DNA from: a virus
Virus record (IMG/VR): IMGVR_UViG_3300036716_001542
Location: 1 to 25,447 of that record
Direction: 5' to 3' (one strand)
DNA: 25,447 bases
This document shows positions 4,834 through 24,838 of the stretch, piece by piece (within the stretch, counting starts at the first letter, position 1; every line of letters starts with the position of its first letter). The notes beneath the pieces are model-generated. The model saw only the letters and a list, made by a program, of their open reading frames with translations. It searched no databases and had not been told where the DNA came from. Made by a program: the position numbers and the translations under genes.

Positions 4834-4841
4834 CAAATTTA
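4834..4841 (-). promoter_or_regulatory. Possible -7 box before the 604-residue tail gene
   Basis: The minus strand reads TAAATTTG, a match to TAnnTTTG, about 17 bases before the ATG at 4816. It overlaps the stop codon of the glycosyltransferase. No upstream TTG lies at suitable spacing, so it is a weak candidate. Confidence 0.3.
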
Positions 4842-5702
4842 CGAATTTAATTGCTTTGTCTTTTTACACTCATCGCAATCCTTCTGAATCAAATCAACCC
4901 ATCCTTTTACAGTTCTATTCGTCTCTTTTGTTTTTAATGTATTAATGAAATCCAAATTGTATTTTATTTGTTTTGGATTAAATAAATCTCTGTAAGAATC
5001 ATTTACAATATACTTATGCCACACTACATTTTGAGGTATAGCGTATATATCTAAGCCATATAAGTATATAAGAAGCGAGTATATCTCTTGTTCTTTGTTA
5101 TGTAAAAAAGAATAATCATTCAGAGTAATTGCTTTTGCTAGTCTTGAATCTCCAAAAATATTACCTCCAGATATAGACATCACCTTCTCATATCTTTCTG
5201 TGGTAGTTTTTTGACAGTATGTAAAATCATTTACTAGAGGAAGTTTATCTGGAGTGTATATCGTAGTTATATTTCTTTTGCTATACTGCTCATAGGTTTG
5301 ATTAAAATCAAAAGGTTGTGGAAATGCACTTAACACTGCATTTACAGGAGCTTCTTTATAAGCGTCTATGTAAACACTATCCCATTTTTTTAAAAACCTA
5401 GAATGAGAATCTACACACATAAAATAATTTTCATCATCATACAGTTCTTTTAGTATAATGTTTCTAGCCCATCCGCATCCCATCGCTTCTTCTGACGGTA
5501 TCGTTTTAATTTTAATATTAGTCTTAAATAAAAAGCTCGAAAAGAAACTACATATTCTTGATATCTCCTCTGGAGTGTCTTGTAAAAATAAACCCACCCA
5601 AACCCTACTGGGAAACTGAGCTTTGTCATATAAATCTACAATGGTATTAATTACATCTACATCTTTATACGACGCAATGCTTACAAGTATATTGTTATTC
5701 AT
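4839..5702 (-). CDS. GlcNAc-transferase-like glycosyltransferase (GT60 / PF11397 type)
   Basis: The best start is ATG at 5702 (MNNNILVSIASYKD), giving 287 residues. The frame stays open to a GTG at 5777, but the family-like sequence begins exactly at this ATG. Motifs match the GlcNAc-transferase family that contains Dictyostelium Skp1 hydroxyproline GlcNAc-transferase and trypanosome mucin Thr GlcNAc-transferase: ILVSIASYKD at residues 5-14, DLYDKAQFPSRVWVGLFLQD at 23-42, GCGWARN at 75-81, FMCVDSHSRF with the metal-site-like DSH at 98-100, AVLSAFPQP at 122-130, SGGNIF at 178-183 and NVVWHKY at 225-231. There is no signal peptide, so it acts in the host cytoplasm. The start overlaps the stop of the radical SAM gene by 8 bases (ATGAATAA), which implies coupling. 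The neighbouring hydroxylase and Pro/Thr-rich tail proteins suggest that its acceptor is a Pro-hydroxylated or Thr-rich virion stalk. The acceptor and sugar donor are inferred, not shown. Confidence 0.82.
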   Translation of the reverse strand: MNNNILVSIASYKDVDVINTIVDLYDKAQFPSRVWVGLFLQDTPEEISRICSFFSSFLFKTNIKIKTIPSEEAMGCGWARNIILKELYDDENYFMCVDSHSRFLKKWDSVYIDAYKEAPVNAVLSAFPQPFDFNQTYEQYSKRNITTIYTPDKLPLVNDFTYCQKTTTERYEKVMSISGGNIFGDSRLAKAITLNDYSFLHNKEQEIYSLLIYLYGLDIYAIPQNVVWHKYIVNDSYRDLFNPKQIKYNLDFINTLKTKETNRTVKGWVDLIQKDCDECKKTKQLNS

Positions 5703-6603
5703 ATTTAAATATTGCAGACGAACAAGATGTGCAGATACTATTAAATGCAGTCTGTAAAACTCTTTTACGTTTATCACTCATCCATATATCTTTTAAAGGT
5801 GTTGTCTTTAAATCACCAAAAGTGTAATCCATATGGTAATCATTACAACATAAGAAGACCTCTCCCCTTGGACTTACATGAAGCCACTCTGTGTCTCTTT
5901 TTGTAGAGCAACCGACTACATTACCACTAGGTAATTTACTCTCCATTACATCATCCATAAGCCCTGCCCTATCTATAAGATTCCATTGTTCGTTTATTTT
6001 TATATTCGGAAAAAGCATTTTAGCTATATTAACCTGGGCTTCAAACTCATCTGGTTCTAGCTCTGGAAAGTTTTTTTTCTTGATTATGTTTGACCTTTCA
6101 TTGATACCATTTATCTGAAGTACCAATATGTCTGGATTTAGTAAATTTTGTTCAGCGTATTTAATATTAGATATTAAAGTATCAAACAGAACCTCTTTCA
6201 TTCCTGTTCTTTTTGAAAACAATCTTTTCTCATAAACAGGAGCGTTAATAGCAATCTGCGATACTACGCCAGGGTATTTATTTATAAGGTCTATTTTGTT
6301 TGGCGTAAGAGGCACACCATTGGTTAGAACACAAAGAGTAAGATTATATTTTTGTAAAGCTTGTAACATCTGCTCAAAATACCTATAAAGCAATACCTCA
6401 TTATAGTGAGAGGCATATACAAAATATAAACCTGGGTTTACTAAGTCTCCCTTTAGCTCGCTTATCTGTCTTATTATATCTTCATAAAGCTCAGGAGACA
6501 TTTGACTTATATGTTCTTTAGGATTGCCAATTAAAGATACAGGACAAAACCAACACCCCGCATTACACAGTCCATTAGGGTCTATCTGTATAAAATTTAT
6601 CAT
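5695..6603 (-). CDS. Radical SAM protein with SPASM-like C-terminal cysteines
   Basis: This 302-residue protein starts with ATG at 6603. The radical SAM cluster motif CxxxCxxC is at Cys13, Cys17 and Cys20 (LCNAGCWFC). The following core contains MSPELYEDII, a TNGVPL strand near residues 94-99 and LQINGINE near 162-169. The C-terminus has Cys232, Cys252/253, Cys291 and Cys294 in a SPASM-like layout (VSPRGEVFLCCND, then FGDL, ending ICTSCSS), suggesting an auxiliary iron-sulfur cluster. SPASM enzymes often modify peptides or small molecules, but the substrate here cannot be read from sequence. The ATG overlaps the hydroxylase stop by 4 bases (ATGA), and the stop overlaps the glycosyltransferase start by 8. 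It therefore belongs to a three-gene cassette and probably works on the same substrate, or makes a sugar or precursor for it. Confidence 0.88.
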   Translation of the reverse strand: MINFIQIDPNGLCNAGCWFCPVSLIGNPKEHISQMSPELYEDIIRQISELKGDLVNPGLYFVYASHYNEVLLYRYFEQMLQALQKYNLTLCVLTNGVPLTPNKIDLINKYPGVVSQIAINAPVYEKRLFSKRTGMKEVLFDTLISNIKYAEQNLLNPDILVLQINGINERSNIIKKKNFPELEPDEFEAQVNIAKMLFPNIKINEQWNLIDRAGLMDDVMESKLPSGNVVGCSTKRDTEWLHVSPRGEVFLCCNDYHMDYTFGDLKTTPLKDIWMSDKRKRVLQTAFNSICTSCSSAIFKYE

Positions 6604-7166
6604 TCTATAATTTTATAGTGAGCAAAAAAGTTTCTATAGTATGTGCCTTGAAAATGCTCTAGCCTTCCGTGTGGACAAATAGCAGATTCATATAATAGCA
6701 TATCGCCAGGCTCTAAGTATACCTTATACCATTCTCCATCATGCCCTTTTATATCTAAAGGCCAGTCATCCCCGTTTTCTTTATTTTGGCATCCACATTT
6801 TAAATCCTTATCCACAAGTATTACCGAAGCAATATGATGTGTTTCTATCCTATCTGTATGCTCAATCAAACTTGCGCCTCTAAGATATGACCTTATTCCG
6901 TACATTGCTGAAGGCTCAATATCTACACCCGCAAACTCCCTGTGTATAGGCAGCAGCTGGTTGTGTATTAAATTCCTTATATGTGGTATATGGTCGTAGG
7001 ATATAAGCTCACTATCTCCTTTTATAAAATGGTCCTTGCCTTCAAAAACTTCATTTACTCTTTTATCCTTCAAAAGTTCATAGGAATCTTGTATAATATT
7101 CCATATATACTCCGGAACTTTTACAACATCAAAACCTTTCTCTGTTAATTTAGGTATATCTTTCAT
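6600..7166 (-). CDS. 2-oxoglutarate/Fe(II)-dependent oxygenase, prolyl-hydroxylase type
   Basis: This 188-residue protein starts with ATG at 7166. The double-stranded beta-helix iron site is visible: His103-x-Asp105 (LIEHTDRIETHH) and a distal His166 in CPHGR, followed by LEHFQGTYYRNFFAHYK. The HGR...G..Y.N.F.HY pattern is characteristic of prolyl-4-hydroxylase-like oxygenases. Arg178 is a candidate for the 2-oxoglutarate carboxylate contact. The segment LEPGDMLLYES just before the distal His is also typical. The expected reaction is Fe(II)- and 2-oxoglutarate-dependent hydroxylation, releasing succinate and CO2. No signal peptide is present, so it is cytoplasmic. The gene opens a coupled cassette (4-base overlap with the radical SAM gene) lying between two genes for Pro-Thr-rich tail proteins. 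Proline in those stalks is the obvious candidate substrate, but lysine, a nucleotide or a sugar cannot be excluded. Confidence 0.85.
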   Translation of the reverse strand: MKDIPKLTEKGFDVVKVPEYIWNIIQDSYELLKDKRVNEVFEGKDHFIKGDSELISYDHIPHIRNLIHNQLLPIHREFAGVDIEPSAMYGIRSYLRGASLIEHTDRIETHHIASVILVDKDLKCGCQNKENGDDWPLDIKGHDGEWYKVYLEPGDMLLYESAICPHGRLEHFQGTYYRNFFAHYKIIE

Positions 7167-7181
7167 TGAATTTAATTTGCA

Positions 7182-7189
7182 TAAAGATA
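7182..7189 (-). promoter_or_regulatory. Imperfect -7 box before the enzyme cassette
   Basis: The minus strand reads TATCTTTA, 7 of 8 to the form TATCTTTG seen elsewhere in the window, about 15 bases before the ATG at 7166. It has no TTG at proper spacing. It is a weak candidate for separate transcription of the enzyme cassette. Confidence 0.2.
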
Positions 7190-7193
7190 CAAA

Positions 7194-7994
7194 TTAGTAA
7201 CAACTACCTGATAATGTAAAGCTTGAACCTGTCCAAAATCTATATGAACCACCTACTGTAAAGTATCCCGATGGGTGTAAAGTAGTGTATGTAGCATCAG
7301 CATAAGCCACTGTGGCTGAAGCAAAAGATGGATTATCGAGATATATATTTCCATAACTTCCAGAACATACCGAAGAAGAGCTATACTGTCCAAATAATAC
7401 ATACCCAGGCGCTGGTGTAGGCGTAGGAGTGGGAGTGGGAGTTGGCGTAGGCGTAGGCGTAGGAGTGGGAGTTGCTTGACAAGCCGCACAATCATTATAA
7501 TAATCTTGTGGCGATATAGCTTGAGCTGTTCCTGTAGGCGAACCTATAACTTCCCAACATACAGACTGCCATTTAATAGAAGAACCAGTACTAACTGCTT
7601 GAGGTAGTGATACGTTTTCCTGAAGTCCGCTACTACAGTTTTGTATTTGATACTGATTAGGCACTGGACTAGGCGTTGGACTAGGTGTAGGCGTAGGCGT
7701 AGGCCCAGGTGTAGGGCTAGGCGTTGGACTAGGGGTAGGCCCTGGCGTAGGCGTAGGCGTAGGCGTAGGCGTAGGTGCAGGTGTAGGAGTGGGACTAGGT
7801 GTCGGTGTAGGAGTAGGAGTGGGCACTGCACAAGATTGACCTGCAAACAACACTCCGCTCACCTGTTCTCTAACTATAGAGTTATCAGAATAAAAACCAT
7901 TGGCCGATACCACTGTTAAATCAGCATCATCGTAAATCGTTGTTGCATTTGCAAAGCTTGCAGTATCAAAATAATATGTTCCTAGTGTTGCCAT
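7194..7994 (-). CDS. Small tail-fibre-like protein built of Cys-ended modules and Pro-Thr stalks
   Basis: This 266-residue protein starts with ATG at 7994. It consists of three compact modules and two stalks. Module 1 is residues 1-56 ([20 protein letters not shown]... ending GQSC). A 53-residue stalk of PT/PS/PG/PA repeats follows at about residues 58-110. Module 2 ends in CAACQA near residue 174, then comes a (TP)10 stalk. Module 3 (residues about 197-266) contains [20 protein letters not shown] and ends at the C-terminus with SGSCY. Modules 1 and 3 clearly resemble each other and modules in the two neighbouring tail proteins. It has no enzymatic motif, signal peptide or membrane helix. It probably forms an extended decoration or fibre on the tail. 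It lies 10 bases after the 1,890-residue gene. The function is inferred from architecture. Confidence 0.8.
7413..7472 (-). repeat. (TP)10 coding repeat
   Basis: Ten consecutive 6-base Thr-Pro units precede APGY in the 266-residue protein. Codons are mixed (ACG/ACT/ACA with CCT/CCC/CCA). Confidence 0.9.
7665..7823 (-). repeat. 53-residue Pro-x stalk repeat (PT/PS/PG/PA)
   Basis: Every second residue is proline over about 53 residues of the 266-residue protein. The alternate residue is mostly Thr, interrupted by Ser, Gly and Ala. It is less pure than the TP tracts in the neighbouring proteins, which suggests an older or differently constrained stalk. Confidence 0.9.
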
Positions 7995-8004
7995 TTTTTA
8001 TAAT

Positions 8005-11000
8005 TTAAGGACAAGTTTGAAATCCTATAACTTGCCCGCTACTATTTAATTCAAATCCTTGTCCATTACCGTTTCCTCCGCAAGGCGCTGGATTGTACCA
8101 TATTCTTCCATAATAACCTCCTGAAATATCTGCAAATGTTCCGTTTTTATCAAGGTCTGCATATAGATATGATGCCGACTGTAAACAAGTCCCGCTTGAT
8201 TGAGTTGAATAAGCCGTGACAGTTGCAGCAGATGGTCCATTATTACAAGCATCTAGTCCTGATGACCAATATGTTGATGGAGATGTAGTTGTTACTGCGG
8301 TCATACAGCTTGAATAAAAACTTGAACTTATTGCCTGTAAAACTCCAAGATTACTTATGCGTATAACAAAACCAGGGGACGTTCCTAATCCTGAAGCCTG
8401 ATAAGAAGCAGCTCCAAAATAATTATTAGCTCCATTATAAATCGACAAACCATCAGCAGTATAAGCTGTGATTGTTTCTCCGGCTGTATATGCACTATCT
8501 AATCCTGCTATAGTTGTAATTGTTCCGCTCGTAGAGCCTGTCAATAATATTCTGTTAGTGTCTATAGTACTTGCTCCACCACAAGCGTTAGTTATGCTAG
8601 TATATCCATTTCCTGCAAGACTGTTTAAAGCCCATATAGCTCCAGGTATAGGAGTTGGAGTAGGGGTCGGCGTTGGAGTTGGAGTAGGTGTAGGCGTTGG
8701 AGTCGGTGTTGGAGTCGGTGTTGGAGTCGGCGTAGGAGTCGGCGTAGGAGTCGGCGTAGGAGTCGGTGTTGGAGTCGGCGTAGGAGTCGGTGTTGGAGTT
8801 GGAGTAGGTGTTGGAGTTGGAGTAGGGGTAGGCGTAGGAGTAGGTGTTGAACTACAAACTCCAGAAGTATCAATATTTGAAGCTGTCCCTTGGTTTGTCA
8901 TTCTAAATATACCCTGAGATATTCCATACCCTTGGTTTGGTTCTCTTACTCCAAAATAATTATCTCCGCCTTGGAATAATGTTGTTAAAGCTGCATCTGT
9001 ATAGAAGAATGTACTATTAGCAAATGTTGTGTTAAATGAACTAGACGAGCTATATAACGGTACTGTTGCAAAAGGACAAGTAGATGGACTCGTTGCGCTT
9101 CCTGAGCCAGCCTCTATAAGCCATCTATATGATGTTACAGGCGTAGGCGTAGGTGTGGGAGTTGGAGTCGGAGTAAATGTACAACCAGTGCACGCATCTG
9201 ATTTACTTGTTATAGAGTGACACAGCTCAGCGCTAGTTGATTCTCTATAGTCCCAAACCAAATACAAGAAACTACCACCAGATGGCATGATAAAGTCAGC
9301 AACAAATTGAGTTGGATTTGTTTGAGCAACTATAGGCGTAGCATCAGTAGAAGCGGCCAATAATGCGTTTATATCCGCTCCTGTGTTACCGTAGAAAGTA
9401 TTAGTTCTTAAATACTTTAATTTATTTTTATTGATATTAAATACAAAATTATCAATATTGCTTTTTCTACTAATAATAGAAACATTAGCAGCGTCTCCAG
9501 GAATAAATCCGCCTCCTTGTTGTCCTGTTACTTGATTGTATAACGATACAATCGGAGCGTTTGTTCCAGATGAAAACTCAACATTTGGATATGTTTTTGT
9601 TGGAGATGTAAATGTTCCATCAGTCCATCTAAACTCATTTGTTATAAAGTCTCCAGCATCTGCATTACTTGTAACGGCAACACTAACAATTGTTATTGTT
9701 TGCGCGTCAGGACAAGAAGTGTTAATGTCAATAATGCTTGCAACAGAACTGTCTTGAGTTACTGTTATTTCTACCGTATCAGTATTTACATCGTTTTTAT
9801 TAAATGATAAAGTTCCGCTATCATACACTGTTCCTGTAGTATGCGATACCCCATTATATGTTGCTGTTATAGTGTAGCCAGTAGTTGAAGCATCACTCTC
9901 TGATACTATTTCATCAGACAATCCTTCACTGACGATATTATCATTAAGCTCACTAATCATTTCAGTAAACCCTCCAGTAGGAATTGTAAAGTCTATATCT
10001 ACTATTCCTAATAAATCACCAACATTTACACAATATGTAAAAGTGGTTGCTGGATTTATTGTAATGTTTTTTGTTGAATTACAGCCTACACATTCTACAA
10101 CTGGCTGTGGCAATTGAACATTGGAATGTAAAACATACTCATTCATGTAAGGGTCAAACCCTCCCATTTTTTGAGTATTAAAAGTGTCTATAAAAAGGTC
10201 TCTAAACCACGAACGCATTCCCGCTTCTGATATAACCTGAAGCTGTTCGTTGTTATACGCACCTCCTATTAAGTTTATTACCGCTCCACGCTTGGCGTCT
10301 GTAAAATATTTGTTAGGACCATATGAAGCATAACTCTCTGGATTTTCACTAATACCGTAATCCTCTAGTCTTGCTATTTGCTGTCCTAAAACTTCAGGTA
10401 CAGATGTAACAGCACCGCCTCCAGTAGAATCGCTAAGTAAATTTTTACCAGCTAAAACATAAGATATCTTATCTTCTTGCAAAGTAAGTATATCTGTTTT
10501 TCTTCCGTCTAGTAATTGAATAGGGCCATAAGAGTCTTCTAATGGCTTAAAATTAAGAAGACCTAGGTTGAACTCGTTTAGTTTATTTACGTTGGTCTCA
10601 TCGTTATAAACCCCACTATACGTTAAATCAGCAAACCTATGTGACTCTTTGTAGTCCATATTAGAGGTAGAGGTTACTCGCTCTCCTATATTTTTAGTCT
10701 TACCTACAATTGAATCTAATATCTTATAACTTTCTACACCATTACCAAACGCAAAACAATCAGAAAACTCTGTATCAATTATTGCGGGCAGGCTTGAAGT
10801 TTGTGTCTGCACGTTTCCAGAATGAATTCCATCTGCACTTACATTAAATGAAAGGTGGTTTTCATACCATACATTATCAAGTGCGTCTGTAGGCTGTGTT
10901 TCAAAAACAATAATAGAATCTGCTCTATATACTTGTATATCGGCTGTAACCGTAGAGCGTCTCTTTGCTCTTGACAATGTACCTCCACATCTGTTAGTAC

Positions 11001-13677
11001 CTGTAATTAATAACGCCAATTCATTAGTTGTGGTGTCTCTAAAAAACTTGTAGTAGTTTGTTCCTGCGGCAGTAGATATATCTGTTTTAGTTGCGGCTGT
11101 AGCCGATTCATAAGTGTTTGTTATATCTCCGCCACCGTCACCTACTTCAGTTACCGCGTCTTCTAAAACCGCTTCTACATTATCTCCATTCCACCAATCC
11201 TGCATATTATCATATGTAGTGGAAGACACAAGGTTTACGTTTAATTCACTAATTCTTCTTTCACATTTACCATTTCCTTTTCCTGGACCTAATCTTTCTT
11301 GTCTTATAGATATTACAATTCTGCTTCCCGCAGGGACATTATAATCTGTGTGTGTGCTACCTGCAATATTAGGGTCAGGTACATTAAGATTCATTGGATA
11401 GTCCAATATAGGATAATCTCCCGCATCGTTTTCAATTGCTGTATTAGAGCCAGGCGTTATTATATCATTATCCTCTTTAACTGTAGAAAAATTATTTGGA
11501 TTAATTTTCATATATGTTCCAGAAGGAACTGATGAACCATTTGAAGGAATAATAAAGTCTTCTTCTTTAGTTTCTTTTTCTAAAACTGTAGCTTCTACAC
11601 ATCTAAGTATAGGTCCATTACTGTCAGACTTAACAAAGTATCTATCTCCCTCTTCTACCTTATTAGCGCTCTCACCTTCTAGTAAAAAGTATGTTGCATT
11701 ACTTCCAGGGTCTTCAAAATAAATACTAGAGTAAATAGTATCGTATGTAGTCTCTGTTGGTTTTAATACAAACTTATATCTAGTAGCCCAGCTTGGAGCT
11801 AACTGCTGAGGTGGTATAGTAACCTGTAATTCGTTTTTATTTATAGAGTTAGCGCAAGGTATCTGTATCGTATTATTTGGGCTTACAAGCGCCGTAGATG
11901 AGCGGTTAAATTCATCCATATATACTATACCAACTTCATAACCTCTGTTACTATGAAGACTTCTAGCTGTATCAGTATTTCTAAAACTAGCAGTTGCACT
12001 GTTTACTTCATAAAATTCATAAGCGTTATTAGCCCCGTCAACATAGTTCATTGCTATCAGTTGAAGACCAATAGTGTTGCTTGCTGGAGACGATATAATT
12101 GCAATAGGTTCTCCGGTATTACTTATACCACTTGCTGTTTTTGTATATGTACCTAATGTTGATGGCAACGCACAATTAACCTGGTCAGTCAAAGTAGTTC
12201 CATTACAAGCGTCAGTTACAGTTTGTATATTTGCAATTGTTCCTATTTTCTCAATAAAATCAGTGCTTGTAGCAAGAGAGTATGCGTTAGGAAAATATGT
12301 TGGCAAAGTATAATCAAATACTATGTCGATATTTGAAGTTGTTGCTCCAGGTGTAGTTCCGGTAAATTGACCGTGTACTATCGTAAAGTCTAAAGTTATG
12401 CTAGAACCAGCGGTTAATTCCAATGTAGTTCCATCTTGATTTGATAAATCAAAATATACTATAGAATTATTTATTGTAGAAGGAGTTGGTCCAATCGAGT
12501 AATATCCAGGGCCAGTCGAGTCTATCAAGTCAGATGTAGCTATTGTCGTACTATTTAAACTGGCAAAAAACTCTAATCTTAAATCTTGATTAAACTTATC
12601 TTTTAAATTATATCCTTCTTTATAGTTTCCGTATACGAGCCTATTGCCCATAACTGTCTGAGCCTTAGCTATATTAGGTACGTTGTCGTATAGTCTTAGT
12701 ATTTCTGAATCAGGTAAAAGAGTAAATATCTTTCTGTCATCAAAGGTATATGTATAGTCTGTATTATCAGAATACCCTAAATTAGACTTGTCAAGAAACT
12801 CTATAACCTTTATATTATTAGTTGTAGACTCTTTAAATAAAAGCTCTATACCTGTGACTAAAGAACTTCCTGTATTAAAAGTTATTATTGCAGCGTTCTT
12901 GGTATTTTTCATACCCTCATTTAAATAGCTGTTATAACTAAAGTCAAATGATGAAGGTGTAAATGCGTCTTCACTAAACTGTGAAGTTGCAGAATATTGA
13001 TTATCGTTATACTTATACCTATAAGCAAAAGATATAAACCTTTCCTCTAAAAAGTCGTCTTGTTGCCCTTGAAGATTTAATGTTTGAATAGATGGAGCTG
13101 CGATAGGAGGTCTCTTAATTACCAATAAAGCCTCAGCAGAAAAACCATCAAAGTAAGAAGGTGATGAAGCGGGAGCATTGTAACTCCTGTTTATATTTAT
13201 ATATCTAGGTGGATTTGTATTGTCTGTAAAAAACAGTAAATCATCTATTAAATTTACACCTGTAATTAAATGATAAGGACTAAAGTTTAGTGTGGTTTTT
13301 AAGTTAGTACCGTCATTTGCACTTACTACATTATAATTTGTGTTGGCAGTATTAGTATTATAAGAAACTATTAAGTCTAGTTTATTGGTTGGGCTATTTG
13401 TAAAAGCTGGGTCATGAACAAACCAATATATGGTCTCGTTAGCCCCATCTTCAAAAGCTCCAATACACCTAGCATTATTGCTTAATTCGATATTATCAAA
13501 CATTAATGTTGTAAGAATAGTATTACCCTTAGAGTTCTCTACAGAACCAACTTCAGAGCCTTCGGTAGAACCAAGTCTTACATTTAACGCATCAATATAC
13601 TCACCATTTGGAACAAGCCTTTCATCAAGGCTTTTGTTCATACGGCCAGCAATAAAATTTCTTTGAATGTTTGCCAT
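8005..13677 (-). CDS. Giant nozzle/stabilization-like tail protein with C-terminal Thr-Pro stalks
   Basis: This 1,890-residue protein starts with ATG at 13677. The N-terminus ([20 protein letters not shown] then [10 protein letters not shown]) is the hallmark I associate with P22 gp10-like / podovirus nozzle proteins of Bacteroidota phages, with a beta-propeller-like body to about residue 1190 that ends in a conserved-looking segment ([16 protein letters not shown] near 1176). The region after residue about 1195 ([10 protein letters not shown]) differs: Ig-like beta domains to about 1500, (TP)6 at 1502-1513, a module starting VTSYRW and ending SGVCSS, 33 TP units at 1611-1676, then two further modules to the C-terminus, which ends QTCP. 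The second nozzle half expected after MNEYVL is absent here but a match occurs in the 604-residue protein at 3002-4816. It lies 2 bases after the neck/ring gene, so it is in the same transcript. The virion location is inferred. Confidence 0.85.
8650..8847 (-). repeat. (TP)33 coding tract with 12-bp and 18-bp higher-order repeats
   Basis: Thirty-three uninterrupted Thr-Pro dipeptides (198 bases) are encoded. Within it, 8699-8794 (plus strand) is eight tandem 12-bp units of form ggagtcggygtw (ggtgtt or ggcgta as second half). Bases 8795-8830 are two 18-bp units that differ in their last hexamer. This indicates growth by duplication of blocks, so tract length probably varies between relatives. 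Confidence 0.95.
9139..9174 (-). repeat. (TP)6 coding tract
   Basis: Six Thr-Pro units lie between CTGCTF and VTSYRW in the 1,890-residue protein. They form a short linker at the start of its module-and-stalk region. Confidence 0.9.
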
Positions 13678-16436: not shown

Positions 16437-17858
16437 CTACTCTTGGAATAAGAAGAAGTTGTTTGCACCTAACGTACATACAGCTCTCTCAGACAAGAAG
16501 TGTACTTCCATAGCATCTAAGCTAGAAGTTGCAGCACCGCCAGCAGAACCTGTAATCCAAGTTTTGTAACGTCTGTCTTCTGTTTCAGAAGCTCTGTATC
16601 GAACATGCAAGAATGGTCTCTTCGCGTTCTTACCTAAAATCTGGTCGTATACTGTAGTAGAACCAGCTGGTACTAATAGTCCGTTGATACGGCCTGAGTT
16701 AGCTCCAGTAGGAAGACCACCACGCATAGTTGGGTCATTTAAGTATTTCCAGTCAGACTTGTAGAAGTCATATCCTCTACGGAATCCAGTGAATCCTAAG
16801 TTTAATGCCATGTCTTTGTCATTGTCAAATAAACCATAAGATGTTCCACCAGCTCCATAAGAGTTTTGAGCTGCTAACATATCATCAATATCAAAGCTAA
16901 AATCTCTATCAACGAAAATTACATTTTCTTCAATAGAACCTTGCTTATCTAAACGAGAGATTACTGCATCAAAGTCAGCTAGTGCAGCTGGGTTTCCACC
17001 GCCCCACACATTTCCACGATTCTCAACTGCATAGAAGATACCTTCAGAACCTTTGTTCCCTACATCTCCTCCAGCTGCGATTGCTCCTGACGCAGCTTCT
17101 GCTGGTACAGCTTCAATCATTGCTGTTTCTAAGTAGTCGTCAAAACGTAGACGAGTTTCGTGCTCTGATTTAAGATACCATAAGTATCCAGATGCTCCGT
17201 TTTCAGTAGTTACTTCTACCCATCCAATTTGCGCCATGTCAGACCCGCTTACAGCGTATTTGTCTTTGATGATAATTGGTGAGTTATCAAAGATAACGTC
17301 ATCAGCTTCTAATGAGCCTACCATTCCACTAGTTCCTTTTTTAAATTCAGAACCATAAATAAACACTGTTCTTGTAAGTCCAGCTGCACCAACTTGTCCA
17401 GCTGCTTCATAATAAGCTACATCAAAAGTTGCTGCTCCCGTATTCACGGCTGTAACAATACCTTTGTTTAATCCAGCTCCTGCATTATCAGAGATAACAA
17501 CAGTCTGTCCTACTCTAATTGCAATGCTTCCAGTACCAGGTACTAATGCATCACCTACTGTGATTGTAGCTGTATCGTCACCAGCTGCTCCTGCTGATGC
17601 ACAGTTAGTATATTTAGTGTGTAATCTTCCTTGCTCTGCCCATTTGATAAGGTCAGAATTAGAAGGCATCTCTGCTCCTACTAAACGTAAGAAAGATGCG
17701 ATTGTACGATTTCCATATCGCTCAAACTCTTTTTCATAAGTATCAGGTAAATACTGATTTAAGAAATCAAAGTTTGTAATGTAGTTAGTTGCCAAAGGCA
17801 CCTGTTCTGCACTCGGTTGTAAAGCAAACCCAGGGGTTGCTTGAACTGCTCCTGCCAT
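16437..17858 (-). CDS. Major capsid protein
   Basis: This 473-residue protein starts with ATG at 17858 after an A/T-only leader. It lies directly after portal and scaffold-like genes and is followed by a strong terminator, as expected for the most abundant virion protein. The N-terminus (TNFDFLNQYLPDTYEKEFER then YGNRTIASFLRLVGAEMPS) and later segments (FVDRDFSFDIDDMLAAQ, YDFYKSDWKYLNDPTMRGGL, FLHVRYRASETEDRRYKTW) fit a HK97-type capsid of Bacteroidota short-tailed phages. Residues about 96-168 are a Gly/Ala/Val/Thr-rich beta segment (TATITVGDALVPG... RVGQTVVISDN...) that looks inserted and may be surface exposed. Its codon choice looks more GC-rich and uniform than in neighbouring genes, which is common for highly expressed capsid genes. 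The family assignment is from pattern and context. Confidence 0.88.
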   Translation of the reverse strand: MAGAVQATPGFALQPSAEQVPLATNYITNFDFLNQYLPDTYEKEFERYGNRTIASFLRLVGAEMPSNSDLIKWAEQGRLHTKYTNCASAGAAGDDTATITVGDALVPGTGSIAIRVGQTVVISDNAGAGLNKGIVTAVNTGAATFDVAYYEAAGQVGAAGLTRTVFIYGSEFKKGTSGMVGSLEADDVIFDNSPIIIKDKYAVSGSDMAQIGWVEVTTENGASGYLWYLKSEHETRLRFDDYLETAMIEAVPAEAASGAIAAGGDVGNKGSEGIFYAVENRGNVWGGGNPAALADFDAVISRLDKQGSIEENVIFVDRDFSFDIDDMLAAQNSYGAGGTSYGLFDNDKDMALNLGFTGFRRGYDFYKSDWKYLNDPTMRGGLPTGANSGRINGLLVPAGSTTVYDQILGKNAKRPFLHVRYRASETEDRRYKTWITGSAGGAATSSLDAMEVHFLSERAVCTLGANNFFLFQE

Positions 17859-17877
17859 AATAATTAATTTTTAAAAT

Positions 17878-19035
17878 TTATTTTCGTTTAATACTTCTTA
17901 TTTTTAAGCCGCGTCCCGAATCAGGGTTAACTGACTTGACTTGAAATCCTCCTTTATTAGTTACTTCAGGTGCTCTACGCTCGCTCATATTTATATTTTT
18001 AGTTTTGCGTATTACATCTTCAGTAGCCTCAGACTTGCCTTGCTCATAAAAGAACTTAGCAAATTTGTCAGGATTCATTGCAATTGATAAAGCTCGATGG
18101 TATCCGGCAGCATCACTAACCAAACCTTTATCATCCAAATACTTATTTATAAAGTTCATTGGAGTTTCTTGGCTCTTCTTGATTGTCTGCACATCACCGG
18201 GAGAGAAGGTTACTGTTTTGTCGTCAAGCACGAAATCAAAACCTTTGAAATCTTCAGTAAAAACTTTATCGGTTTCTTTTAAAAACCAATTACGTTTTGC
18301 CTCACTTTCCTGTTGTTGAGTTTTAACAGATTCTAAATATTGCCTATACTCTTGAAGTTCTTCATTGTTGCTCTGAGAATCAACAACCGGTCTTGACTCA
18401 AGTGGTTGTTTGTATAATTCTTTTTGCTCATTAAAATACTTCTTTGCTTTAGCAATAGTTTTCTTTTTTGCTAATTTTGTTTTTTTAATTACAGATTCTT
18501 CATCTAGTTCTTCATCCCAAGAATAATCCTCCATTAGAGAATCAATATCTTCAGCGTCTAAACCTTCGCCTTCTGTAACTGTCAAATACTCTCTTAGCAA
18601 AGAATCAGGATTCATAGCACTAAAGTCTCTTTGTAATTTTACATAGTCTTCAATACCTCTTCCCGTTTCTTTTTTATACTTAAAGTAAGCCGCAACATCT
18701 TCTGGAAGCTGTTCAGCCTCTTCTCTTGTTGCATTTAATTCATCTAATGAATTAATTTCCTTACCATATCTTTTTCCAATATATGAAAGAACGTCTTCTT
18801 CTGATAACTCTGCCTGCTCTTGAACTGGCTCTGGTGTTTCTTCAGAAGTTTCTTCTGCTTTAGGAGTGTCTTCTACGACACTCTCTTCAGCAAAATCCAT
18901 TTTTACTTGAGGATTATTTTCTTTTGTCTCGCTAGAGTCACTAAACTTTTCCTCATGCTTATCAAGAAGCTCTTGTTCAACCTCTTGTACTGATTTTTCT
19001 TCAACGGCATCTACCGCTCTTACTTTTAATTCCAT
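17878..19035 (-). CDS. Scaffolding-type head protein
   Basis: This 385-residue protein starts with ATG at 19035. It lies between portal and capsid genes. The first 200 residues are very rich in Glu, Asp and Ser and look disordered or helical (VEQELLDKHEEKF, SEETPEPVQEQAELSEEDVL). A coiled-coil-prone Gln/Glu/Lys segment covers about 190-265. The C-terminus is basic (GRGLKIRSIKRK). An acidic, helical body with a basic C-terminal tail, encoded just before the capsid gene, is the usual design of phage scaffolding proteins, whose tail contacts the capsid protein. No protease motif was recognised. A TAAATTTG box precedes the gene. The function is inferred from composition and order. Confidence 0.72.
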   Translation of the reverse strand: MELKVRAVDAVEEKSVQEVEQELLDKHEEKFSDSSETKENNPQVKMDFAEESVVEDTPKAEETSEETPEPVQEQAELSEEDVLSYIGKRYGKEINSLDELNATREEAEQLPEDVAAYFKYKKETGRGIEDYVKLQRDFSAMNPDSLLREYLTVTEGEGLDAEDIDSLMEDYSWDEELDEESVIKKTKLAKKKTIAKAKKYFNEQKELYKQPLESRPVVDSQSNNEELQEYRQYLESVKTQQQESEAKRNWFLKETDKVFTEDFKGFDFVLDDKTVTFSPGDVQTIKKSQETPMNFINKYLDDKGLVSDAAGYHRALSIAMNPDKFAKFFYEQGKSEATEDVIRKTKNINMSERRAPEVTNKGGFQVKSVNPDSGRGLKIRSIKRK

Positions 19036-19053
19036 TTAATTTAATTTAGATTA

Positions 19054-19061
19054 CAAATTTA
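19054..19061 (-). promoter_or_regulatory. Possible -7 box before scaffold and capsid genes
   Basis: The minus strand reads TAAATTTG in the 45-base gap between portal and scaffold-type genes, about 18 bases before the ATG at 19035. No TTG was found at proper spacing. A promoter here would make sense for raising scaffold and capsid expression over portal. Confidence 0.35.
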
Positions 19062-19080
19062 CTTAAAATTTTAACGCTCA

Positions 19081-21516
19081 TTATCGGGGTGAAAACTCAG
19101 ATAAATCAAAGCCGTCAAGGCTATCTTCATTAGATTCAAAATTCTGTGGAGGTAAATTATTTTTACGTTGTGAAATCAATTTACTCTGTTCAGTATTTTG
19201 CTGACTAATTCTATTAGACTTAGCTTTCTCTCTTGAATCTTCCCTGTTTGATAAAGACTGCTCTGTCATACCATGCATTTGTAAGTTATAATTAAACTCT
19301 TGTTGCATTAAGTTAGACTTGAGTTGAGCTTCCGCTTTTTGTCTTTCAATTTCAAAAGCTACTTCAGCTTGCTTCACTTTCATTTTAGATTGTGTTTCAA
19401 GCTCTATCTTTTGCATAGCTGTTTGTGCAGCCATTTCTTGAGACTTGAGTTGTTGTTGAGCTGTCATCGCTTGCTTTTGCATAGCCATTTTATCATCACG
19501 CTCTTGTTTAGCAAGTCTCTTAACTTTCAATAATTGATTAGCAAGTTTCAAGTTTTTAATCTCACGAATATCAATAGCATCTTCAAGATTAATATCTTGT
19601 TTAGATAAAGCCATTTGTATATTCTGTTCGAGCATAGCTTTTTGCTCTTCGTCTGGAGACAGTTCTATAAATACACCGAAGTCATAAATATATAAATCAG
19701 ATATTTCCCCAAGTATACTTACGTTGTATTTACCAATCTTATTTATAAAGTCCTCCTTAAAGTCTGCATACTCTAAAATATCTGCGATACGATAAGTTAA
19801 AGCTTCTGATAAACTTCTGTATATATATAGACTTCCGTCTAATATATGTCTTGTTGCTGTATTTGAGTTTAATGCAGCTAACTTCTGAACACCAACCAAA
19901 GCATCTGGAGATGGTGTAGAGCCGTCTCTCGCTTCATTTAAGCCTGTTACAGAACGAATCATACCTAAGTAATGATTATAGTTAGCTATAAGCATTTGCG
20001 TCTTAGAAGCTCCAGAACTGCTTGTAAGCTGTTGAATAGGAACTTTACCTTGATTGTATTCTCCGTCTTGAGTATAACTTCTACCAACTACACTACCAGT
20101 TTGGAAGTATAGCCTTAATGCATCCGAAGGGTCATACGAAGCTCCTGTTCCCAAGTCAACCTCATTCAATCCATCGGCATCAATATAGACTCCATCAGGT
20201 ACAGTTCTAGCAATAACTTGCTGCAACTTTAAATGAGTTATCTGTATTAAATCAGCAAAAGGAATCATTCGTCTTACTAGAGACTCAATAACTCCTTTGT
20301 ACATTCTTGGTGCTACGGCAACATAATTTGGTAAGGCGTGCTGAGAAGAAGACTTTGGTCTAACCATATTCTTTGCAAGCTCCCACTTGAGAATAATATT
20401 AGTTCCCATAACCATCACCCCATCATACCATACATCAATAGTCTTTTCTATTTTCTCGAACTTTCCGTCTTCCATCATTTCTTGTGGAGGATTAAAAGTA
20501 TCGTCTTTTTCTATCATTTTAGAACCACCGCCCTCAAGTATTCTTTTCTTATAAACCATCTTCTTAGTGGTTTTATAATTAAAATACATTAGAGTACAAG
20601 TATCTCTATAAAAAATATCATTCTCATAAAACTGAGCTACATTATAATAGTCATACCAACTCTGACTATATTTAGATATCTCTTCTAAATCTTCACGAGT
20701 AAGGCTTGGGTCTATCTTTAATAGTTCAGCAATAGGTAATGTTTTAATCTCTCCCCAATAAAAACAATCTTTAAAGTGAGGGTCTTCAGTGTAACTGTAC
20801 ACAACATTAGCCGGGTCTACATATGATATTTGAACTCCAGCTCCAGGTAGGAACTCGTGTTTTGCAACAGACATACCTATAACTGTAGAATCATAGTCTA
20901 TTTGTTTACGAATATCATCATAATGATTTTCAGAAAACATAGTGTCTATTGCCTCTTCCTCCGCAATTTCAATTGCAGGCTTATAGTTTAGGTTCATGTA
21001 AAGAGACAACTCCTCATCAGATGACGGAAGCTCATCGGGGTCCATAATAAATGGGTCTACACCTGTCTGCTCTTGTATCGTAGTCAAGATATCTTTAGCA
21101 GCCATTTGGCCCTCTATCATATCTTGATACTTACTTCTTTTTGCTTGAGATAATGCGTCTTGAGCATAAGCCTTAACCTTAAACTCTCGGTCTTGCATAC
21201 CATTAACAACTATATCTACAAACTTTGGCAATATAGGGACTGGTGTCCAATCTAAGTTTAGATAAGATAAGTCTCCATCTACTGCAATTTCGTTTTTATA
21301 TTTAGCAATTGATTGCTCCCCTCTTGCGTATAAACGCAGTTTGTGAAAGTCTCTCCATTGATTGTAGTATCTACACTGGTTTCCGTCTTTTTTAAACCAT
21401 TCGTATTGAATAGCTTGTCCTATCTGTAAACCAAATTCGTTCGTAGCTTTTTCAGCATCAGAAACAAATTGACTTGGAAAGCCTGTAGATGCAATGTCTA
21501 TTGTAACATCCTTCAT
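19081..21516 (-). CDS. Portal protein
   Basis: This 811-residue protein starts with ATG at 21516, directly after the large terminase stop. Length and position (terminase, portal, scaffold, capsid) fit the large portals of short-tailed and crAss-like Bacteroidota phages. Portal-like segments include WTPVPILPKFVDIVVNGMQD near residue 90, YVDPANVVYSY near 225, LVRRMIPFADLIQITHLKLQ near 415 and MIRSVTGLNEARDGSTPSPD near 515. Residues about 620-755 form a long Gln/Lys/Glu/Met-rich helix (LAKQERDDKMAMQKQ, ELETQSKMKVKQAEV) that probably makes the C-terminal barrel or a coiled coil. The tail is polar and ends in an acidic stretch (SNEDSLDGFDLSEF). It acts at the head vertex as the dodecameric DNA channel. 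The subunit number is family knowledge, not visible in the sequence. Confidence 0.88.
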   Translation of the reverse strand: MKDVTIDIASTGFPSQFVSDAEKATNEFGLQIGQAIQYEWFKKDGNQCRYYNQWRDFHKLRLYARGEQSIAKYKNEIAVDGDLSYLNLDWTPVPILPKFVDIVVNGMQDREFKVKAYAQDALSQAKRSKYQDMIEGQMAAKDILTTIQEQTGVDPFIMDPDELPSSDEELSLYMNLNYKPAIEIAEEEAIDTMFSENHYDDIRKQIDYDSTVIGMSVAKHEFLPGAGVQISYVDPANVVYSYTEDPHFKDCFYWGEIKTLPIAELLKIDPSLTREDLEEISKYSQSWYDYYNVAQFYENDIFYRDTCTLMYFNYKTTKKMVYKKRILEGGGSKMIEKDDTFNPPQEMMEDGKFEKIEKTIDVWYDGVMVMGTNIILKWELAKNMVRPKSSSQHALPNYVAVAPRMYKGVIESLVRRMIPFADLIQITHLKLQQVIARTVPDGVYIDADGLNEVDLGTGASYDPSDALRLYFQTGSVVGRSYTQDGEYNQGKVPIQQLTSSSGASKTQMLIANYNHYLGMIRSVTGLNEARDGSTPSPDALVGVQKLAALNSNTATRHILDGSLYIYRSLSEALTYRIADILEYADFKEDFINKIGKYNVSILGEISDLYIYDFGVFIELSPDEEQKAMLEQNIQMALSKQDINLEDAIDIREIKNLKLANQLLKVKRLAKQERDDKMAMQKQAMTAQQQLKSQEMAAQTAMQKIELETQSKMKVKQAEVAFEIERQKAEAQLKSNLMQQEFNYNLQMHGMTEQSLSNREDSREKAKSNRISQQNTEQSKLISQRKNNLPPQNFESNEDSLDGFDLSEFSPR

Positions 21517-23781
21517 CTATCTAATTAATTCACTTAAATTTCCCTTATTTGTATACCTTGCAAAGTTAAGGTTTATTTTTGATTGTTTTTTCTCTACTTG
21601 ATACATATGCCTTTGTGTTGCCATAACAGCTAATCCAGAACTAATACTTGCATCAAATTTAGTTCTATTATTTATATCAAACTTTGCCCAGTCTTCTAAA
21701 GTCCTTGTAAACAACATATTACCCATATCTCCAGATTCCCTAAATTGTCCTTCAAAATCTATACCTACATTTTTTTCTATGTAAGATTCAATTGCAGCAG
21801 CGTGAGACTGCTTTACATCCTCAGAACTATTAGGTATACCTCCTAGCTCTTTCTCTGTTTTTGATAGCTTGGACATATGCTTGTCAGGTCTGTTCATGGA
21901 AAAACCTCTATATCCTCTGTTCTTAAAATGATACAGTAATCTAGGCTTGTTATTCTCCACTAATATTGGCATACCATAAAACACACAAGCCATCAATACT
22001 TCTTCAAAAAATATCTCAGCTGTTTGCGGCCTAGCTACATACTCTAAGAAAAACTCATTAGCAGGAGCTTCCTCCATACTAAACTTAGTCATTCCATGTA
22101 AAGCTCCATTAGAACCTCCACCGCCGACAGTTCCAGATATATCATAAGAGTCACATCCAAACGCTCCCATATGGTCATTGCCTGGAAACTTAATACCTCT
22201 CCTATCAATAACATTATTTTGCAATCCCTTTGATGGTGTCCAGCTAATTAAAAACCTACCTCTCTTGTCAGGACTAAAAGCCACCTTAGTATCTTTAATT
22301 CCATTCTGCCAATAAAAGTTCCCTCTTGTTAAGTGGTGTTCTAGTATTAAAGAATCGTTATAGTCTATCTGTTGGTATATCTTTGTAAGATTAAAAAGAG
22401 AAGACTTACTCTCATCTCTAAATGCGTGTGACTCTGTTCTAGGAAACTGTCTGTAAAATTCGTTCAGTGCATCCGCATCTGATTTTAAAGAATCTACTTC
22501 AGCCTGCCAATAGTCTATAGCTCCGTTAGTAATCCATTCTCCATCAACACCCTTTCGTTTTTCTTTAGGAGCTATAAGAACTGGCTGCCCATACACATCT
22601 ATAAATCCTTCCATGTTCATTTCCATAGGAATAAACAAAGAATACATGCCGCTTTTAGTTTGTCCGTTAGCGTTTCTTTTGTTTACATCAGAATCTTCAT
22701 AGAGCTTTTTAAAATTACTACCGCCTTTATCAAGAGCATTTGAAGTAGAGCCCATCAAACACTTACCTATTATCTTACTACCTAACCTCAAACAAGTCTT
22801 AGTGACTCTCCAGTTGTTGAGTATATTATTTGGCTTTATCCACTTACCACTTTCATCATGGACTAACAGCATAAGTTTTTCACCATCATAGGAGTTGTCA
22901 TCTGTATTTTTCCAATCAATAGTGGTATCAAGACCCGTAAGCTCTTCATTAACACTATCGTACATATTTTTCTTTGTAATCTTAGATGCAGGTATCCTAA
23001 AGGCTAGTTCAGTCTTTGGTTTATCCATACCATCCTGTATGGGTTTAAAAAAGAACGGAAGTCTATTAGATATAGGAACTACCTTATCGGTAAACATCTT
23101 TTTAGAATCCGCTCCAGTTTTTGATAATATGCCTACCCTAGAATCTTTTGCTAATGTACCTGCGTTTACACACTCTGAAGAACCCATAAATGAAAACCCT
23201 GAACGTCTAATCTTTAAATATATCATACCAAAGGCTCGCTTATCTGCTTTACACGCTTCCCAAAAAATATAAAATATTCTGTTAGCCTCTCTATAATCTG
23301 GATAACCTACATCAATTGCTGACCATTGTAGATACATATAATGTGAGCCAGTAATGTAAGTTGGTTTTCCATTATTCATAAACCAATGCCCTTCTTCCCT
23401 ATTGTCAAATTCAGACTCTATATAATCTACCCATCTTGATTTAAAAGGAGTAGGCATTTCGTTCCATTGAAATATAGAATATATTCTCGACAGCTCCTTT
23501 GGGAGTTCTTGTCTTTCCCAATATTGCTCTGATATATTCTTAGACCTTGAGAAACAATCCTTAGGAAGTACAGGTAAACCTACTTTAAGACCTGATATTT
23601 CTACAATATCTCCGAGCGTACCATTTTTAGAAATACAAACAAAGTCATACTTGTCGTTATATCCATACTCCCAAGTCTTAGCTCTATTTTTATTAGCCAA
23701 AACACCTTTAGGTATGTATCCCTCTAAAACCTTATAGATGCTACCTTGAGCGTCTTTCTGCAAATCCTTGTTTTGTTTCAA
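21517..23781 (-). CDS. terL: Terminase large subunit (packaging ATPase/nuclease)
   Basis: This 754-residue protein has a TTG start at 23781 (TTG AAA CAA AAC). The frame is closed by a stop ten codons upstream, and the first in-frame ATG is at residue 109, so a non-ATG start is likely. The ATPase domain has a degenerate Walker A-like segment IRRSGFSFMGSS (191-202), Walker B LMLLVHDE (303-310, catalytic Glu310) and a coupling-motif-like CLMGSTSNA (341-349). The nuclease domain has acidic residues at expected spacing: Asp544 in GCDSYD, Glu609 in PILVEN and Asp710 in KFDASISSGLAVMA. It cuts and translocates phage DNA into proheads at the portal. The start overlaps the upstream 93-residue gene by 41 bases, consistent with coupled translation. 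The canonical GKS/T of Walker A is absent, as is usual in this branch of phage terminases. Confidence 0.9.
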   Translation of the reverse strand: MKQNKDLQKDAQGSIYKVLEGYIPKGVLANKNRAKTWEYGYNDKYDFVCISKNGTLGDIVEISGLKVGLPVLPKDCFSRSKNISEQYWERQELPKELSRIYSIFQWNEMPTPFKSRWVDYIESEFDNREEGHWFMNNGKPTYITGSHYMYLQWSAIDVGYPDYREANRIFYIFWEACKADKRAFGMIYLKIRRSGFSFMGSSECVNAGTLAKDSRVGILSKTGADSKKMFTDKVVPISNRLPFFFKPIQDGMDKPKTELAFRIPASKITKKNMYDSVNEELTGLDTTIDWKNTDDNSYDGEKLMLLVHDESGKWIKPNNILNNWRVTKTCLRLGSKIIGKCLMGSTSNALDKGGSNFKKLYEDSDVNKRNANGQTKSGMYSLFIPMEMNMEGFIDVYGQPVLIAPKEKRKGVDGEWITNGAIDYWQAEVDSLKSDADALNEFYRQFPRTESHAFRDESKSSLFNLTKIYQQIDYNDSLILEHHLTRGNFYWQNGIKDTKVAFSPDKRGRFLISWTPSKGLQNNVIDRRGIKFPGNDHMGAFGCDSYDISGTVGGGGSNGALHGMTKFSMEEAPANEFFLEYVARPQTAEIFFEEVLMACVFYGMPILVENNKPRLLYHFKNRGYRGFSMNRPDKHMSKLSKTEKELGGIPNSSEDVKQSHAAAIESYIEKNVGIDFEGQFRESGDMGNMLFTRTLEDWAKFDINNRTKFDASISSGLAVMATQRHMYQVEKKQSKINLNFARYTNKGNLSELIR

Positions 23782-24022
23782 CTTTAGTATCTGTGTTATG
23801 TGATAAGTTTATATTCTCCTGCTCCTGGTCTATCTTATTTAGTATGTCAAAAGCATCAAAGATGGCTAACTTTTTTGTGGCAGCTGCGTTTTTTAATCTG
23901 TCTGCTGCTAATTCATCTTCTGGGTCGTGCTTAATAATATCTTCCTTAGCAACTTTAATAAGCTGTTCAACAGCTTTTCTACCAGCTTGAATTATCTGTT
24001 TCTTTAGTTCTTCTGAGTTCAT
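23741..24022 (-). CDS. Small helical protein, candidate small terminase subunit
   Basis: This 93-residue protein starts with ATG at 24022. It is almost entirely helical by composition (ELKKQIIQAGRKAVEQLIKV; DELAADRLKNAAATKKLAIF; DAFDILNKIDQEQEN) with a basic, polar C-terminus. It sits directly before and overlaps the large terminase, the standard position of a small terminase subunit, but no helix-turn-helix was recognised and it is short for that family. Other possibilities are a packaging accessory protein or a conserved late protein of unknown role. Confidence 0.6.
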   Translation of the reverse strand: MNSEELKKQIIQAGRKAVEQLIKVAKEDIIKHDPEDELAADRLKNAAATKKLAIFDAFDILNKIDQEQENINLSHNTDTKVETKQGFAERRSR

Positions 24023-24050
24023 TTTCTTTTACTGCATTTAATTGAATATT

Positions 24051-24614
24051 TCACAGAACCATTGTAATGTGATTATCAAACATTCGATACAACTTTTGAC
24101 CATCTACATTAAATTCATATTCAGTATCTGGTCTAAAGGTAACTAGGTCGCCTTCTTTTATACCACGCTCTTGTAATGTTTTATTTATATATTTCATTTT
24201 ACCCATAAGGGGCTCTTCAGCAAAAGGCTTATGTATATAAGATTCAGTAACTGGCACTGGCTCTACAAAACAATACTTATCATGGCAATGCCACTTATTG
24301 TTTTTATTATACATATAAAACTGCTGATTGTCTATAAAAAACAAATCATCCATGAAAAAACTTTTGCCGCTTTTCTGCCGACCCTTCATGTCATTATAAA
24401 ACTTAAAAACATTATGGTGCACTAAAAGAGTATCTCCTGGCTCTATATCTCCTTCGTATCCTAAAGGAGTAGAAACAACAATAGCTTCTCTATTAGAAGC
24501 TATATGGTTTTCTTCTGAGGTACTAGTTATAAAATCTACACCTCCTATTTCTTTTGAGTTATTATATCTCTTACCCTTTGTGGGTTTTACTATAAAATAA
24601 AAAGGTGACCTCAT
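24051..24614 (-). CDS. GroES-like (Cpn10) co-chaperonin-type protein
   Basis: This 187-residue protein starts with ATG at 24614, overlapping the upstream stop by 1 base (TAATG). Features resemble Cpn10: an N-terminal strand FYFIVKPTKG, a mobile-loop-like EIGGVDFITS (residues 22-31, compare GGI in GroES), then AIVVSTPLGYEGDIEPGDTL followed by LVHHNVF (44-70), and at the C-terminus GIKEGDLVTFRPD with DGQKLYRMFDNHITMVL (151-187), which mirrors the closing strands of GroES. It is almost twice the GroES length, with about 80 extra residues between the two GD-containing motifs, so it is either an expanded Cpn10 or two half-repeats. By analogy with T4 gp31, a phage co-chaperonin could adapt host GroEL to fold the capsid protein. 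This is a pattern-based assignment. Confidence 0.6.
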   Translation of the reverse strand: MRSPFYFIVKPTKGKRYNNSKEIGGVDFITSTSEENHIASNREAIVVSTPLGYEGDIEPGDTLLVHHNVFKFYNDMKGRQKSGKSFFMDDLFFIDNQQFYMYNKNNKWHCHDKYCFVEPVPVTESYIHKPFAEEPLMGKMKYINKTLQERGIKEGDLVTFRPDTEYEFNVDGQKLYRMFDNHITMVL

Positions 24615-24838
24615 TAAAAGTTTATATTATATTCCACAGAAATAGGCATAGTTGAATTAAACTCTTTCCATAAAAACACTTCATCTGCTTTTTGAATCCA
24701 TATTTTTATTGAACCTTTATGCTCGTCTTCTTTTATTAAATGAATGCTGTGTGAACCCCCAAGTATTTCTTGCCCTACAATATAGTGCATTGCACTAGAC
24801 TTATAGTCCGGACCTATTGATATTTTTCTAATATGCAT
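24614..24838 (-). CDS. Small conserved-type phage protein of unknown function
   Basis: This 74-residue protein starts with ATG at 24838. It is beta-rich: MHIRKISIGPDYKSSAMHYI, then GQEILGGSHSIHLI, GSIKIWIQKADEVFLWKEF and a C-terminal PISVEYNINF. It has no membrane helix or known motif. Its stop overlaps the GroES-like start by one base, so the two are probably translated together and may act together. A TATATTTG box lies upstream. I have an impression of having seen similar proteins in marine phage packaging regions but assign no function. Confidence 0.65.
   Translation of the reverse strand: MHIRKISIGPDYKSSAMHYIVGQEILGGSHSIHLIKEDEHKGSIKIWIQKADEVFLWKEFNSTMPISVEYNINF

Follow-up and report, generated by a model that had tools for sequence, protein, structure and literature searches.

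An open reading frame of an uncultivated marine phage (24051..24614, minus strand, with its ATG at 24614 and its stop at 24051) encodes a 187-amino acid protein that is predicted to consist of two Cpn10-type barrels arranged head to tail. We consider it fairly probable that this tandem protein is a two-Cpn10 phage co-chaperonin with the architecture of Cpn20, which caps GroEL to fold virion proteins, possibly in a mixed ring. The viral record that carries the gene is evidently a fragment, and its full 25,447 bases are referred to here as the window.

Gene, family and predicted fold

The sequence-only reading of the window had located a GroES-like gene at 24051-24614; these coordinates were correct, the coding strand being the minus strand, and the plus strand over the same interval is full of stops. 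The segments on which that reading relied, IGGVDF, GDIEPGDTLLVHH and GDLVTF...DGQKLYRM, were all found in the 187-amino acid protein. Compared with close relatives, the gene showed dN/dS values of 0.04-0.10; it is a real open reading frame under strong purifying selection. Its proposed relatedness to GroES also extends well beyond chance, with PHROG 13932 ("co-chaperonin GroES") matching residues 1-181 (E 4.9e-19) and relatives being encoded in 599 of the 600 candidate stretches listed in a scan of IMG/VR, such that the family has at least 599 relatives and is very common there.

We modeled the full protein with AlphaFold2 from a 53-sequence alignment (pLDDT 84). Its best full-length match in the PDB was 7ekq_R, a chloroplast "Cpn20 co-chaperonin subunit" (Foldseek E 1.9e-5, Z 10.6, 161 residues over 1-187). 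Single GroES-type chains aligned almost end to end with residues 107-187, running from 103-108 to 187 (Z 7.3-8.8), and when residues 1-122 were modeled alone (pLDDT 88), complete GroES chains aligned over approximately residues 1-105 (Z 5.2-6.8). T4 gp31 was structurally similar as well (Z 6.0-7.4). The top 13 structural rows for the residue 1-122 model were all co-chaperonins, with unrelated rows appearing at Z 4.7, and the best Foldseek match for domain 1 alone reached only E 0.034. Since the Z values for domain 1 were middling (6.8), sequence was brought in as a second test.

In this second test, the canonical phage GroES profile, phrog_3188, matched the first half of elemo-type relatives (L168, residues 14-65, E 5.5e-6; L177, E 3e-6; L176, E 1.1e-5; a fourth member, E 1.4e-4) and the second half of Callevirus-type (Cellulophaga) relatives (L201, residues 109-193, E 1.9e-7; L199, E 8.8e-7; a third member, 1.1e-4). 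Since one profile matches the first half in some relatives and the second half in others, both halves are GroES-like. Family profiles, a check proposed in the sequence-only reading, gave a divided answer: PHROG 13932 matched strongly, and the second halves of L199, L200 and L201 scored over the curated cut-off of Pfam Cpn10 (PF00166), but Pfam Cpn10 did not match the window protein itself. This Pfam profile matched 11 of the 53 family members, and its match in L200 covered profile positions 8-92 of 93. In L200 and L201, mobile-loop-like segments could be seen by eye in both domains (GDVSIVVNST and IGSIIVxNS).

Other searches with the window protein were less informative. PDB GroES was matched by profile at residues 142-186 (E 0.033), phmmer against the PDB returned nothing relevant, NCBIfam gave only an unrelated match below its cut-off, and the sub-cut-off Pfam matches (e.g., DUF1967/Obg on residues 142-169) were unrelated. 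Aligning domain 1 with compact GroES and with domain 2 using hhalign yielded nothing convincing (Prob 1.9, or else a shared 13-residue overlap). Because no similarity was detected when profiles of the two halves of the family alignment were compared directly, the argument for duplication comes from structure and from the relatives. With a compact-GroES HMM built for this analysis, domain matches were marginal and shuffled sequences reached E 0.03, so only PHROG and Pfam scores were relied on. Taken together, the Cpn10 beta-barrel is predicted twice, at residues 1-105 and 107-187, and the tandem probably arose through duplication of a Cpn10 domain.

These results support the GroES-like fold claimed by the sequence-only reading, both through PHROG 13932 and through predicted barrels that match GroES chains, and the model contains the beta barrel (twice) and the mobile-loop-like segment (in domain 1) that such a fold should have. 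They differ as to the number of domains. Cpn10-like segments near both ends of the protein had been taken to indicate a single Cpn10 whose roof was replaced by an insert of ~80 residues, a reading that we now regard as very improbable because whole GroES chains align independently to each half, two-domain Cpn20 matches the full length, and L200 and L201 hold a complete second Cpn10, including a mobile loop. The extra length is instead a second Cpn10 domain plus a hairpin of ~20 residues (about 69-90). GDIEPGDTLLVHH and GDLVTF, previously assigned to one Cpn10, represent a single strand region that occurs once in each of the two consecutive Cpn10 domains, and KWHCHDKYC, the suggested roof replacement, forms the interdomain junction (residues 107-115).

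Domain 1 (residues 1-106; 24297..24614, minus strand, as for the protein features and the neighboring genes from 16437 to 24838 given below) was delimited by the residue 1-122 model, the GroES-chain alignments and the phrog_3188 matches in elemo-type relatives. Its first strand in the model (residues 7-11) leads into a mobile-loop-like segment (residues 12-42; 24489..24581) marked by conservation and by a dip in pLDDT to 66-71. Within this segment, the GGVDFI motif (residues 24-29; 24528-24545) aligns by eye with the GroES GGIVL loop and is conserved as GG[IV][DE][FL]I, with a hydrophobic-acid-hydrophobic pattern at residues 26-28 in most of the 53 members, supporting the earlier proposal of a mobile loop and giving it a conserved hydrophobic docking motif. 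A short turn at residues 49-61 takes the place of the GroES roof; the roof hairpin is absent from both domains, as in T4 gp31. HHN (residues 66-68; 24411..24419), where the GDTLLV strand (62-65) ends, is invariant in 53 of 53 members. The hairpin that follows (residues ~69-90; 24345..24410; short strands at 72-74, 80-82 and 86-88 in the model) is the one insertion of appreciable size compared with GroES and precedes the closing strands (91-110). At the junction, C115 and the adjacent F116 are present in nearly all members and W108 in most, while H109 and C110 vary; a metal site in KWHCHDKYC was rejected because H109, C110 and H111 are not conserved.

Domain 2 (residues 107-187; 24054..24296) is defined by the GroES-chain alignment, the PDB GroES profile and PF00166 in L199-L201, and its model comprises a strand at 114-119 and a closing hairpin at 166-186 without a roof. 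The loop at its mobile-loop position (residues 120-136; 24207..24257; pLDDT 58-73) is similar in length to the GroES mobile loop and carries a conserved ESYIxKPFxEEPLMG, but it lacks the GG-hydrophobic docking motif; the same loop reads IGSIIVxNS in L200 and L201. The docking motif of domain 2 has been lost in the window lineage, with loop length kept.

The annotated relatives, named "chaperonin cpn10", come from Flavobacterium elemo phages and from Cellulophaga phages (29-37% identity), and the tandem protein is 63% identical to that of MW202828. A scan of genome contigs returned eight matches, all in MAGs of inconsistent taxa (Aliivibrio, Nitrosomonadaceae, Cytophagales and an archaeon), which are most likely binned phage contigs; no host is assigned from them. 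A match to an E. coli phage (anhysbys, E 3) was attributed to chance and set aside.

Genes surrounding the tandem gene

The position of the gene in a packaging/morphogenesis block, proposed from the window alone, was borne out across relatives: the terminase large subunit gene (TerL; 21517..23781; PHROG 6681, E 1.5e-181) lies downstream of it in all 151 loci whose sequence extends far enough. The portal protein gene (19081..21516; PHROG 6547, E 4.6e-142) was present in 106/106 loci. Between the tandem gene and the terminase is a 93-aa open reading frame in the position of a putative small terminase (23741..24022; 158 of 185 loci), which is missing from elemo- and Callevirus-type phages. The probable major capsid protein, a candidate client, is encoded at 16437..17858 (PHROG 13704 virion structural protein, E 1.1e-104; weak Crass_capsid Pfam match, E 0.18). 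Directly upstream, a 74-aa open reading frame (MHIRKISIGPDYKSSAMHYIVGQEILGG...; 24614..24838) overlaps the tandem start codon by one base and occurs in 170 of 176 testable loci; it had no Pfam or PHROG match and is a possible functional partner of the tandem gene.

With TerL as its neighbor, the tandem gene could also have a packaging role. The two-barrel protein might not be a GroEL lid but might have been co-opted for packaging or for the virion (e.g., as a terminase or portal accessory), or it might cap another ring such as ClpP. The invariant position beside TerL, the invariant HHN and the loss of the second docking loop would suit these functions, and the closest structure derives from a ClpP complex (7ekq) capped by a Cpn11/20/23 ring. 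"Chaperonin cpn10" is furthermore a core protein of the Pervagoviridae, whose core proteins are mainly structural (PMC8776804). We nevertheless consider a non-lid function improbable, given that domain 1 has kept its conserved hydrophobic mobile loop across lineages and that most well-covered relatives encode GroEL. Small terminases are helical, unlike the predicted beta-barrels, and for this reason small terminase identity for the tandem protein was rejected.

Elsewhere in the window (4839-7994), open reading frames for a 2OG-Fe(II) oxygenase-like protein (7166-6600; 34% when compared with the phage S-SCSM1 protein annotated as a 2OG-Fe(II) oxygenase), an enzyme of the radical-SAM/SPASM type (6603-5695) and a glycosyltransferase of GlcNAc type (5777-4839; PF11397, E 5e-33) lie among Thr-Pro-repeat virion-type proteins. 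Long (TP)n repeats occur in three open reading frames (8005-13677, 7194-7994 and 3002-4816); the run in the 1890-aa protein exceeds 60 residues, and such coding simple repeats could vary in length. PF11397 includes transferases that act on hydroxyproline, so one idea open to testing is that the (TP)n regions are hydroxylated and glycosylated. The oxygenase-like open reading frame (6600-7166) was also matched by phrog_2954, whose name, "ferrochelatase", is probably a mis-annotation in cyanophages.

Phage GroEL and the composition of the lid

Neither GroEL nor compact GroES was found in the window, a 25,447-base fragment too short to tell whether the phage has them. Among 38 related records, 26 encode GroEL and 27 a compact GroES of about 85 aa, the latter being present in all 26 GroEL-positive records, although the set holds near-duplicates and these figures count records rather than independent lineages. 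With the exception of G019, the records lacking these genes are 19-54 kb contigs in which absence is uninformative. Both genes are located elsewhere in the relatives' genomes, away from the tandem gene. Of the long relatives, G001 is the closest; its tandem protein is 88% identical, and it encodes GroEL and compact GroES as well. In G019 (the L200 record, 72.8 kb), which encodes compact GroES and the tandem protein, no GroEL was detected; the lid proteins of G019 may therefore use host GroEL. Since most well-covered relatives encode compact GroES and GroEL, the tandem protein comes on top of an ordinary GroES and is not the sole co-chaperonin of the phage. The parallel with T4 gp31 drawn by the sequence-only reading is supported as structural kinship, but it is complicated by the separate compact GroES and GroEL of most well-covered relatives.

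Apical helices H and I of GroEL bind GroES and substrate. In the phage GroEL these helices read IENVLKPI and NTLAAN, compared to LLPILE/LLPVLE and ATLVVN in the aligned references, and the substitutions are common to eight phage GroEL genes (L182, L183, L184, L185, L202, L203, L139 and L081; mostly ENVLKPI, with NTLAAN or NTVAAN). To judge from the aligned residues, these changes suggest altered co-chaperonin or substrate specificity, and their conservation would fit a co-evolved private lid.

From the conserved gene, its predicted two-domain fold, its synteny and its co-occurrence with GroEL, we infer how such a lid might work. A group I chaperonin would receive the mobile loop of domain 1 in its apical groove, and a single tandem chain would fill two adjacent positions of the lid ring. 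The tandem protein would thereby cap GroEL in late infection, most likely the phage-encoded GroEL found in relatives, and virion proteins would be folded beneath it. If one chain takes two ring positions, three tandem chains and one compact GroES could fill seven, and since the phages encode the two kinds of chain that chloroplasts pair, together with GroEL, a mixed lid is plausible. The more specific proposal is that GroEL, compact GroES and the tandem protein form a complete private set whose mixed lid draws its seven domains from, e.g., three tandem chains and one compact chain, the docking loops being fewer than the domains. Such a lid would be a viral invention, convergent with chloroplast Cpn10/Cpn20 and dedicated to virion assembly; we advance this proposal only tentatively, as doubtful in its full form. 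The missing docking motif in the second loop and the lack of a detected GroEL in G019 count against our preferred reading of a GroEL cap, possibly a mixed one.

The main rival to the mixed lid is a homo-oligomeric, gp31-like lid, in which tandem chains alone form the ring, either as three or four chains (six or eight domains) or as a heptamer of two storeys. This ring would take the place of GroES on GroEL of the host or the phage and enclose a large capsid protein, leaving compact GroES to serve other clients. Such a lid would be consistent with the roofless, gp31-like structure (Z 6.0-7.4), with the placement of the tandem gene in the morphogenesis block while GroEL and compact GroES lie elsewhere, and with G019, where the absence of a detected GroEL fits use of the host protein; Cpn20 homo-oligomers and six- and eight-domain concatamers do function with GroEL (PMC5780408). 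However, every GroEL-positive relative also encodes compact GroES, as do mixed-ring organisms, and the window lineage has a single docking motif per two domains. We view the homo-oligomeric lid as a possible but rather unlikely arrangement.

Comparison with known co-chaperonins

The same family is present at full length, and in the same place before TerL, in PHROG 13932, in the "chaperonin cpn10" of Cellulophaga phage Calle_3, in the homologue of phi38:1 (Pervagoviridae) and in Flavobacterium elemo phages. The Calle_3, phi38:1 and elemo homologues are annotated as ordinary GroES or as hypothetical, and we found no mention of two domains. For marine Bacteroidetes phages, Nishimura et al. reported phage-encoded GroEL in 36 of 78 genomes (2017, PMC5332604). 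The relatives studied here belong to the same phage group (phi38:1 "group 2"), and the main text of that paper is silent on GroES and on a tandem co-chaperonin. The phi38:1 GroEL has been detected, in methylated form, in infected cells (virocells) and free virions (PMC13288928).

Thus, the "cpn10" annotation was already known (PMC8776804), while the tandem architecture and the Cpn10-Cpn20-like three-gene set appear undescribed; we found no report of either in the full-text literature, which is weak evidence because subscription journals lay largely outside the search. A widespread phage version of the two-domain protein, beside the phage's own GroEL and single-domain GroES, offers an independent, genetically tractable case for asking how a seven-fold chaperonin is capped by a chain with an even number of Cpn10 domains and for what reason certain phages encode a whole chaperonin themselves. 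Direct testing is feasible in the cultivated relatives (phi38:1, Calle and the elemo phages).

T4 gp31 resembles the tandem protein in being phage-encoded, in its roofless Cpn10-type fold and in its morphogenesis context. However, gp31 has a single domain and is T4's only co-chaperonin, working with host GroEL, whereas the tandem protein has two domains and is accompanied in relatives by a separate phage GroES and GroEL.

The closer likeness is to chloroplast Cpn20/Cpn23, which share the two head-to-tail Cpn10 domains and include the best full-length structural match (Z 10.6); in both settings a single-domain Cpn10 and Cpn60/GroEL co-exist with the two-domain chain, on the phage side in 26 of the 38 related records, including G001. 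Two-domain co-chaperonins have been regarded as chloroplast-specific (PMC5780408). The window protein nonetheless shares only about 10% identity with Cpn20, has no roof hairpins, has lost one docking motif and carries an extra hairpin in domain 1, and it is probably an independent duplication. L200 and L201 have an intact second mobile loop, but this loop is degenerate in the window lineage, where a docking motif in only one domain makes the protein an analogue of Cpn20 rather than a member of the Cpn20 family. In chloroplasts, Cpn20-type chains pair with single Cpn10 chains in seven-domain mixed rings (PMC5780408), and the Chlamydomonas Cpn11/20/23 ring, seen in 7ekq as two Cpn20 chains, one Cpn23 chain and one Cpn11 chain totaling seven domains, provides a precedent for two-domain and single-domain chains together making seven positions.
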